Part shown: piece after piece, positions 25,364 to 61,231 of the stretch
Layout of the letters: each line of letters opens with the position of its first letter
How positions within the stretch are numbered: position 1 is the stretch's first letter
Source: Zygosaccharomyces rouxii
Lineage: Eukaryota; Ascomycota; Saccharomycetes; Saccharomycetales; Saccharomycetaceae
DNA: 64,000 nucleotides
Direction of reading: 5' to 3'
NCBI RefSeq assembly: GCF_000026365.1
Contig: NC_012993.1
Location: 372,001-436,000 of the forward strand
The notes under the pieces: generated by a model
What the model was told of the DNA's origin: nothing
What the model saw: the letters and a program-made list of their open reading frames with translations, nothing else
Databases searched by the model: none
Program-made: the position numbers and the translations under genes

Positions 25364-26907
25364 TTAAATATTCGTCCTTTGCCTCTTTTTGTTAGGAATA
25401 GTTTGATCCAGCATAATGCATTTAGGTAATTTACGTTTCCATTCGGACTTTTTCTCTAATTCATTAGGTTCCGACTCTTCGGGTTCCACACCATTTAAAA
25501 TCTTCTTGGAGTATATCTTCTTTAATTGCTCATGGTGCTTAGAGATCCAAGGATGTTTAAGACTTCTATTACTATCCAGTCTTTTGTTAACGTCCACTTC
25601 TAAAAGCTTACGAACGAAATCCTTGGCGGTATCGGCTACCACGTCCCATTGTTTGGCGTTAAAATTTAATTTCCCGACTTTGGCATTTTGAATAATACTT
25701 CTTTCAGTACCATCTCCATAGAATGGTGAAATACCAGTTAACATGATATGTGTAATAACTCCTAGTGACCACAGGTCACACTTGCTATCGTAACCTTTTT
25801 GTTCCAGTGTAGCCGCGCGGGAGAAGGATTGGTATGCCTTTCTACTAGCTCTGAATCCAACCTCAGGAGCACAATATTCGGGAGTACCAACCACTGTATG
25901 CATTCTTGTCTTCGCAGTAGATAAATCTTTGGCGATACCAAAGTCCGCTAGGACTATTCTAGTGCATGGCTCTGGTGAACATAGCAAAATGTTGTCCAAT
26001 TTAAGATCACGATGGACAATACCTCGATCGTGCAGATACTTGAGTGCATTTAATATTTGGTACACTATTATAAGAGATTCTGTCTCCGATACTGAAGTCA
26101 AACAGTCACTTTTAGCCAAGTATGAAAATAGATCTCCGCCAGGTATTAAATCTTGAAAGATGTACAGATTGTCCCTTAGATCACAATAAGTGTGGTGAAC
26201 TTTAATGATATTTGGCTGCAAGTTTTTGTTAGTAAATAAAAATTATTCAAAAATCGGAGATAAGAAAGGTATTACCTTCTGCAACGTACATGGTTCAACT
26301 TTAATAAAATTTTAGCCTCTTTGTCCAACTTATTTGGTTTTAATTTAATGATTTTCACTGCGTAGTTTTCTGGAGACCATTTGTCTCTGTTATTCGTATT
26401 TTCATCTCTTGAATCCTTGTATGCAATTAGAACGTGTCCAAATGTACCATTACCAATTACTTTTGGTGTGACTCGCCATTGTTCTACTTTATCTTCAAAC
26501 CCCAGTTGTTGTAGTAATTTATTGTTGATTCTTTGTGATTCATTGATAAATTTGAACTTTCCACCACCACGACACAGTTCAACAATATCACCATCTTGTA
26601 ATAGATACGTTGTATTTTTCTTCAACATGAGACCATTCAAGTAAGTTCCATTCAGAGAGCAATCCTTAATGTAACACATTGGTGTTGATTCTTCATCGAA
26701 CAGAACCGCCCAAAATATGCAGTGTATCGATGAAATAGCAGGGTCCTCTACAACTAAATCGCATTCTTTTCCATTACGTCCTAATTTCAGAATGGAGTGT
26801 TTACGTATTGCTAAAAGTTTGGAGTAGCCGCCGACCCCTGAATCACCATTACTATCTAAATCTACCACATCTATGGTTTCCAAATAACCTAAAGCTGTTC
26901 CTGGCAT
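25364..26907 (-). CDS. MEK1: Meiosis-specific kinase Mek1, two exons
   Basis: Two reverse-strand exons, 26907-26290 (206 codons) and 26215-25364 (283 codons plus stop), join to 489 aa; S. cerevisiae Mek1 is about 497. Mek1 is the Rad53-like effector kinase that acts with Hop1 and Red1 on meiotic chromosome axes to favour interhomolog recombination. An N-terminal FHA domain (about residues 30-110) shows LGRNG, SSIHCIFW and CSLNGTYLNG. The kinase domain has the ATP lysine in YAVKIIK (K185), HRDLKLDN (H274-D276), DFG (297-299) and GTPEYCAPE. The exon junction restores KLNH-PNIIK exactly. Unspliced reading stops 5 codons after the junction, giving an FHA-only product. Neighbours match S. cerevisiae. 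Confidence 0.95.
26216..26289 (-). other. MEK1: Spliceosomal intron of MEK1 (74 nt)
   Basis: Reverse strand: donor GTACGT at 26289-26284, branch point TACTAAC 16 nt before the acceptor G, acceptor TTGCAG ending at 26216. Phase 0, between His206 and Pro207, inside the kinase N-lobe. The intron holds ATACCTTT, one mismatch from the Mer1 enhancer AYACCCUY. The junction restores a conserved kinase sequence. Confidence 0.95.
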
Positions 26908-27625
26908 AATAATAATCCTTTGAAATGGTCCTTAAACTTATTAGGTATCGATTTCTGTTTTCCTTTTCTGTTGAGGAGTTGTTGGTAAAAGAATGAATTG
27001 TAAAACTAAACGTTAACACTTATATAGGCGTAGGAGGTTAAAAACCAAAAGCGCTGCAAGAGAAGTAGACTAGGAGCACCAGGTTCCAATTCATCGATTG
27101 TTAACCGTACTAGACTTAGGGACACCATAGTTTTTACTCTGAGATTTTGGCAAAGAATAAAGACGGTAGTGGTGTGTTCGGCGGTTCAATCAGTAAATGC
27201 TAAGAATATATAGTTCTTTAAACTGGTAGATTACAGGGCTTTGAAAGGATTACTCAAACAAATACCGGTTACAGATGATAAGTATTTATGCTTATCTTTT
27301 ACTCTTCTGCGGTGCATATATCCATCCATCAACTCCGTCCTCTGAATTATTGATTGCATTTTTTTGTACAATTCGAACATCAGAGCCTGAGAGAAGGGAA
27401 GAGTATCAATTGACTTAATATAGCAAGATGAAAGCTTCCAAGGGTCTCAGCGGCTAATTAAACTGGGATTTCGTACTACTATTGCATTAGACATCATCAC
27501 GTGACCATCTCTTCTCCGGACACAGGGATCAGCTCGCTGTACTCATCGATTAAAACGTCCCTCACTTATAAACGTTTTACAAAGGGGTGGATAGTGAATT
27601 ACCCAAAGCTTAACTATTGATAATT
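26908..27625. promoter_or_regulatory. MEK1-TFB6 divergent promoter region
   Basis: This 718-bp region carries no ORF of note. TTCGGCGGTT (27177-27186) is, on the MEK1 strand, an 8/10 match to the meiotic URS1 operator TAGCCGCCGA, about 270 bp upstream of MEK1. TCAGCGGCTA near 27447 is a 9/10 match. A CACGTG E-box is at 27498-27503, about 125 bp upstream of TFB6. All are candidates only. Confidence 0.45.
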
Positions 27626-60391: not shown

Positions 60392-61231
60392 ATGGCACCA
60401 AGGTATGTGGGTGATTACAGAATGATTGGCTAGCCAGACGTGAGAAATACTAACACATTCTCTTCATCAAGTGTCGCATTAGTTAAAGTCGCCTCCAATA
60501 CAGTTCTACCTATAAGAATCTTTATCAATAGGAAACAACTACTACAAAACAATTCTAAGGATACAGTTTTCCATGCACCACTACTTTCGAACAATTCTAT
60601 TGTCTGCATTAAATCACCATCCACTAGAATATACCTTTCCAACCATGATATGCAGAACTTAACCAATGATATTGAAACAGAGATTTTACTTATCGTACAT
60701 GAATTGACCTCACCAGAATTGATGCAGGATGTACTGAGAAAGATTAAGATTGGTCAATCAATGGACTGGCAGAAAGATGTTATGCCTAGAATCTTCCCCA
60801 GTGAAACTGAACCGCTAGTGGTTTCCCACATTCAGTCGATCACAAGAATCGCTAAATTCAAATACAAATTACATTTTAAACACAACTGGGAGCTAAACAT
60901 CTTTATCGATAACATTAGAGCACTAACTCATATTAGAGCTTACCTGATGTTTAAAAATGATTTGTCCATAATCCCTCCAGTGGTAGGATTACACTCCAAA
61001 TCCAAGCTCTTACTACATGAACAGATGGAAACAGAGAAACCACCTCAAGTGCTACAAGAAGATGATGAACCTTCTATTCCAAATTACGATGAAGCTGCAG
61101 AAATCCAAGAAGAGCAGAAACCGGAGTTGAAGTTTAAATACAGTCCAGTGGTAAGCCTAGGCGAATGCATTAATGTGCATGTCCTACAAAGACCACAGAG
61201 AAACAAGAGAACTCAGCCAACATCATCCTAG
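60392..61231 (+). CDS. SAW1: Single-strand annealing protein Saw1, two exons
   Basis: Exon 1 (60392-60402) and exon 2 (60472-61231) join to give 256 aa (261 in S. cerevisiae). Saw1 binds branched DNA and recruits Rad1-Rad10 to cut 3' flaps during single-strand annealing repair. The spliced N-terminus MAPSVALVKVASNTVLPIRI matches the known start of Saw1 closely. Other conserved parts include FINRKQLLQ, LLSNNSIVCIKSPSTRIYLS, HIQSITRIAKFKYKLHFKH and the C-terminal VVSLGECINVHVLQRP. Without splicing the ATG frame stops after 13 codons. The second exon alone has no ATG before the conserved core. Located between FRT1/2 and PRO2. Confidence 0.93.
60403..60471 (+). other. SAW1: Spliceosomal intron of SAW1 (69 nt)
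   Basis: Donor GTATGT at 60403-60408, branch point TACTAAC at 60448-60454, acceptor CAAG ending at 60471. It splits the Ser4 codon, after the first 11 nt of the CDS. The acceptor is AAG rather than the usual YAG. The later TTAG at 60480-60483 would put a stop codon in frame, so AAG must be used if the protein is made. Confidence 0.9.

Follow-up and report, generated by a model that had tools for sequence, protein, structure and literature searches.

General features of the MEK1 locus

The window, that is, the whole stretch of DNA analysed here (64,000 nucleotides), corresponds to C4:372001-436000 of the Zygosaccharomyces rouxii genome, which comprises 9.76 Mb in 7 contigs. The MEK1 gene lies on the reverse strand and consists of two exons separated by a 74-nt intron in phase 0 (26216..26289). 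Exon 1 (26290..26907) contains 206 codons for the FHA domain and the start of the kinase N-lobe, ending in KLNH, and exon 2 (25364..26215) contains 283 codons and a stop, starting with PNIIK. The intron carries the 5' splice site GTACGT (26284..26289), the branch point TACTAAC (26228..26234), and the 3' splice site CAG (26216..26218) in the form GCAG. The exons are in phase, and removal of the intron results in a single frame of 489 aa that encodes both the FHA and the kinase domain, rejoining H206 and P207, two residues that do not vary when the window protein is aligned with 11 relatives. The unspliced frame closes at an in-frame TAA (26272..26274) and yields 211 aa with the FHA domain only. 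The intron described in the initial annotation can be regarded as confirmed by its signals, the restored frame, the conserved junction and its recurrence in relatives.

The neighbouring genes were identified with Pfam as MNE1, TFB6 and SOG2, the same order as around S. cerevisiae MEK1 (YOR350C-YOR353C). Full-length MEK1 records exist for Z. rouxii (ZYGR_0AK02010) and Z. bailii, indicating that the intron was already spliced by annotators. Between MEK1 and TFB6, some 270 bp before MEK1 begins, the sequence TTCGGCGGTTC (27177-27187) resembles the meiotic URS1 (Ume6) site. A further intron-like stretch from GTATGT to TACTAAC is located at 60403-60454 on the forward strand of the window, upstream of a 193-aa open reading frame at 60650.

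Distribution and age of the intron

The use of the exon-1 frame as a query retrieved 18 proteins of 171-235 aa. In 17 of them the frame passes the histidine of the [KR]-L-[NDT]-H motif, continues with valine (GTN) and ends at most 34 codons further on, while the remaining protein, P0143, stops short of the splice site. The second intron codon of these 17 proteins is cysteine in 10 (as in GTATGT), arginine in five (as in GTACGT; P0128, P0129, P0130, P0137 and P0145) and serine in one, and P0142 ends directly after the valine. All eight tails of at least 15 codons can code for TACTAAC 43-54 nt after the donor, compared with 18% of residue-shuffled tails; two of the eight also permit an earlier TACTAAC site, and these readings presuppose that every tail is closed by a stop codon rather than cut off by the end of its contig. 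Proteins consisting of exon 2 alone were found as well, and two exon-1/exon-2 pairs share the size of the largest contig (69,593 and 16,345).

The MEK1 gene of S. cerevisiae is not known to contain an intron. The 516-aa protein P0003, which is 66% identical to Z. rouxii MEK1 and is taken here to be S. cerevisiae Mek1, is uninterrupted across the intron site, in agreement with the initial annotation, which gives this gene as intronless. Alignment across relatives, which the initial annotation had proposed for dating the intron, places GTN after the same histidine in 17 of 18 proteins. Since the site is common to relatives and P0003 is unbroken, the intron, judged from these proteins, is old, and its absence from S. 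cerevisiae probably reflects a loss in that lineage.

No discussion of the MEK1 intron was found among the papers listed by literature searches. A study of intron evolution in Saccharomycetaceae (PMC4202332) drew its intron set from S. cerevisiae, with a few additions. Like the ancestral introns lost in S. cerevisiae in that study, the MEK1 intron has a position common to relatives and absent from the presumed S. cerevisiae protein, with the junction residues unchanged; unlike them, MEK1 is not named in its main text (PMC4202332).

The Mer1-like octamer

The consensus of the Mer1 splicing enhancer is AYACCCUY. The MEK1 intron contains a Mer1-like octamer, ATACCTTT (26265..26272), at intron positions 18-25, which matches the consensus at 7 of 8 positions with a C to T change at position 6. 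It is the sole place in this intron with at least 6 of 8 positions matching AYACCCTY, and the exact enhancer (printed as AUACCCUU in PMC6380292) does not occur. The near-match reported in the initial annotation is present, although it is separated from the donor hexamer by 11 nt and not by about 15 nt. Dinucleotide shuffling of the 49 nt that separate donor and branch point produces a match at 7 of 8 positions or better with a probability of 0.062 (0.060 in a repeat). The match is no closer than chance allows (P=0.06), and as evidence by itself it also fails because 6 of 100 intron candidates in the genome, MEK1 included, match as well. The last six bases of the octamer are predicted to form part of a weak hairpin, on its 3' arm; when five introns were folded, MEK1 was no better than its shuffles (z -0.06). 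A position-matched TAATACY common only to MEK1 and AMA1 (2 of 100 candidates) was noticed after the fact and is not considered evidence.

Conservation of the octamer, also raised in the initial annotation, was not borne out. With the tails of relatives treated as degenerate DNA, none of the eight readable relatives could encode AYACCYYY in the interval from donor to branch point; in P0145 the sole codable place is at nt 96, beyond a possible branch point at 44. Three proteins, P0128-P0130 (82-89% identical), are readable only to intron nt 18, and their tails end at intron codon 6 (nt 16-18), as does the unspliced frame of MEK1, which is closed by the TAA within TAATACC. None of codons 3-5 in P0128-P0130 agrees with its MEK1 counterpart; the shared end would fit a kept TAATACC and could be due to chance.

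Introns of the Z. rouxii genome

A genome-wide catalogue of places where GTAYGT is followed after 24 to 54 nt by TACTAAC has 100 rows compared with 26 in the control, which puts the expected number of false introns at about 26. For the expectation and enrichment tests 98 rows were used, two overlapping duplicates being dropped, and host genes were examined for 39 rows, namely the 30 that come first along the genome and nine more (SPO22, MEK1, MND1, L077 and L079-L083). An octamer matching at 7 of 8 positions was found in 6 of the 100 rows: MEK1, PCH2, a U2AF1-like gene, a BOS1-like SNARE gene, C4:1073389 and C5:337468. The shuffles gave a mean of 3.2 in 98 rows, and the probability of six or more is 0.11. 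The form AYACCYYY occurs between donor and branch point in three of 98 rows, where 0.67 would be expected (P=0.05); of the three, MEK1 and PCH2 are both meiotic and both have AYACCTTY, and the third, L077, looks like coding sequence. When all places 4-34 nt before TACTAAC in the genome were counted, AYACCYYY showed no excess (12 compared with 24 in the control); by eye, seven of these 12 have no obvious intron, and L077 again looks coding. The stricter AYACCCTY occurs at two such places (five in the control), one of them in MER2 and the other, by eye, in apparently coding sequence. In addition, ATACCTTC is present after the branch point in two introns, L040 and L063, whose host genes we do not recognise as meiotic.

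The donor GTACGT is a minority form, present in 9 of the 100 rows. Two of these were set aside, one being nested in a GTATGT match and the other having no plausible frame; the seven credible cases include two meiotic genes, MEK1 and AMA1, and five that look like housekeeping genes, so that the reading of this donor as a sign of meiosis in the initial annotation is not supported. The BOS1-like intron (L083) combines GTACGT with a 7 of 8 match, the combination put forward for MEK1 in the initial annotation, in a gene that is not known to have a meiotic role. The BOS1-like protein had no match among solved structures. The names of the BOS1-, TAN1-, SUS1- and RPL27-like genes rest on Pfam domains, and that of the prefoldin-like gene (L035) on inspection by eye only. 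In general, the MEK1 intron resembles the ordinary short introns of the Z. rouxii genome in its length, TACTAAC branch point, minority GTACGT donor and short distance from branch point to acceptor, and differs only in the octamer. The U2AF1-like gene with an intron (L036, C1:42894-42954) encodes a CCCH zinc finger and an RRM; this splicing factor is reported to have been lost in Saccharomyces sensu stricto (PMC4202332).

MER1 and other meiotic genes

The genome contains a MER1 orthologue, the absence of which would, according to the initial annotation, have told against meiotic control of MEK1 splicing. It encodes a 271-aa KH protein with 100% identity to ZYRO0C10472p and 60% identity to a protein of Z. 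mellis whose name describes it as required for MRE2-dependent mRNA splicing. A conserved neighbourhood of MER1, suggested by a tyrosine phosphatase neighbour and a presumed MRX7, was considered and rejected; the other side is occupied by an intein-type endonuclease and not by SSB, so the identity of MER1 rests on its sequence only. This LAGLIDADG homing endonuclease with a Hint domain (L084, C3:799000-801000), located approximately 3-4 kb from MER1, is presumably a VMA1-type intein.

The clearest Mer1 element was found in the MER2 orthologue (C7:911500-915500), where an exact ATACCCTT lies between a non-standard donor and TACTAAC (P=0.0016, assuming the donor GTTAGT). The donor may be GTTAGT, defining a 66-nt intron with the element at position 20, or GTAATT, defining a 90-nt intron with the element at position 44; both are in frame, with Pfam scores of 96.9 and 97.1 bits. 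MER2 visibly keeps the Mer1 element and is a better candidate for a Mer1 target than MEK1. In the HFM1 orthologue (C5:775500-782500), a 106-nt intron with weak splice signals, including the donor GTAGAT and, by eye, the probable branch point CACTGAC, has ATACCCCT at position 32 (7 of 8, P=0.11). The PCH2 orthologue (C1:1050079-1050139), identified by its Pfam AAA domain and a match to the solved structure of pachytene checkpoint protein 2, carries ACACCTTC at intron position 16 (7 of 8, P=0.07), with the same C to T variant as MEK1 at nearly the same place (16 compared with 18). The best matches in AMA1, with donor GTACGT, and SPO22, with donor GTATGT, reach only 6 of 8 (P=0.18 and 0.33, respectively), and that in the MND1 intron 5 of 8. 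HOP2 was located in the genome, and DMC1 (C3:152186-152911) is one open frame without an intron.

In S. cerevisiae, the splicing of PCH2 requires Nam8 (PMC6380292), and the known Nam8/Mer1 set was defined as MER2, HFM1, AMA1, SPO22 and PCH2 (n=5). Orthologues of these targets have at least 7 of 8 positions in 3 of 5 cases, against 4 of 93 other catalogue rows (Fisher P=0.002), in a test that is small and partly circular, PCH2 having been noticed through the motif; moreover, MER2 and HFM1 are not catalogue rows, the HFM1 interval is 77 nt as against 39-50 nt in the other introns entered individually, and about a quarter of the 93 comparison rows are probably not introns. Of the four Mer1 targets alone, two reach 7 or 8 of 8 (P=0.018). 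This result indicates that the Mer1 element is alive as a class in the Z. rouxii genome and does not show that MEK1 has it.

Splicing of MEK1 and its possible control

The MEK1 intron is likely to be an ordinary spliceosomal intron that is older than the split of Z. rouxii from the relatives sharing it and was lost in the lineage of S. cerevisiae. The standard spliceosome would remove it by means of a slightly weak GTACGT donor and a perfect branch point. Splicing of MEK1 would then not strictly need Mer1, and the octamer would be a chance or lineage-local near-match. If the intron were retained, translation would stop after five intron codons, giving either an FHA-only fragment or a target of nonsense-mediated decay.

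That MEK1 has no intron at all, and that its frame is broken at 26272 by a frameshift or in a pseudogene, has a negligible probability, given the consensus-like donor, branch point and acceptor, a junction that is precisely in frame and falls on an invariant site, the interruption by GTN at the same place in 17 of 18 relatives and the full-length Z. rouxii and Z. bailii records. The early stop may also be seen as an off switch independent of Mer1, whereby retention of the intron, through slow splicing or decay by Rrp6 or NMD, for example, would keep the kinase low outside meiosis. This is an unlikely reading. The stop at intron codon 6, where the frames of P0128-P0130 end too, and the V-R form of the donor, V-C being commoner in relatives, are consistent with it, as is the precedent of S. 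cerevisiae HOP2, a meiotic pre-mRNA left unspliced outside meiosis (PMC3226532); however, an early stop is expected by chance in an AT-rich intron.

The initial annotation suggested that MEK1 could join a meiotic splicing regulon. Under such control, Mer1 would bind AUACCUUU near the weakened GTACGT and aid the U1 snRNP, so that full-length Mek1 would be made in meiosis only. This proposal gains from the MER1 orthologue, the exact element in MER2, the near-match in HFM1 beside a weak donor and a probable non-consensus branch point, and the enrichment among Nam8/Mer1-target orthologues. The octamers also lie at similar positions, 16 in PCH2, 18 in MEK1 and 20 in MER2 (if GTTAGT is the donor), and P0128-P0130 likewise have a V-R donor and a frame that closes at nt 16-18. 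Against it, a match as good as that of MEK1 is expected in 6% of shuffles, the element is uncodable in all eight readable relatives, and AMA1 and SPO22, both Mer1 targets in S. cerevisiae, only reach 6 of 8 here. GTACGT is also used in housekeeping-looking genes, ATACCTTC is found after the branch point in L040 and L063, AYACCYYY is not in excess near TACTAAC, and the MEK1 octamer is predicted to be mostly, if weakly, paired. With the chance-level match and absent conservation weighed against the class-level enrichment, Mer1 control of MEK1 is doubtful, though somewhat less so than the off switch, and the interpretation in the initial annotation is only partly supported. In S. cerevisiae, splice-site scores are highest for AMA1 among the three Mer1-dependent genes that PMC3226532 lists, and the AMA1 transcript is spliced to 31-32% without Mer1 and to 71-72% with it (PMC3226532). 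These figures make partial Mer1 control of a fairly good intron possible.

Compared with the Mer1/Nam8 introns of S. cerevisiae (MER2, HFM1/MER3, SPO22 and AMA1), the MEK1 intron is likewise short, located in a meiosis-specific gene, and provided with a non-majority donor and a 7 of 8 octamer near it, in a genome with MER1. It differs in being one base off in the C-run, in its perfect branch point, in the chance-level match and in an octamer that is not kept with the intron. A bolder scenario, which is improbable as a whole, is that an old intron, once constitutive, was recruited to the Mer1/Nam8 regulon in the Z. rouxii group, the donor changing from GTATGT to GTACGT and TAATACC arising at positions 16-22. 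Mek1, a recombination-checkpoint kinase, would thereby have come under meiotic splicing control, while AMA1 and SPO22 drifted from the consensus, and the enhancer of MEK1 and PCH2 may be a common CCUU variant read by an altered Mer1.

As it stands, the result for MEK1 is modest, being an old intron that many yeasts share and that was apparently lost in S. cerevisiae. If Mer1 control were true, one meiotic splicing factor would govern break formation, through MER2, as well as the kinase directing repair towards the homologue, and the turnover of a splicing regulon would be traceable within one family.
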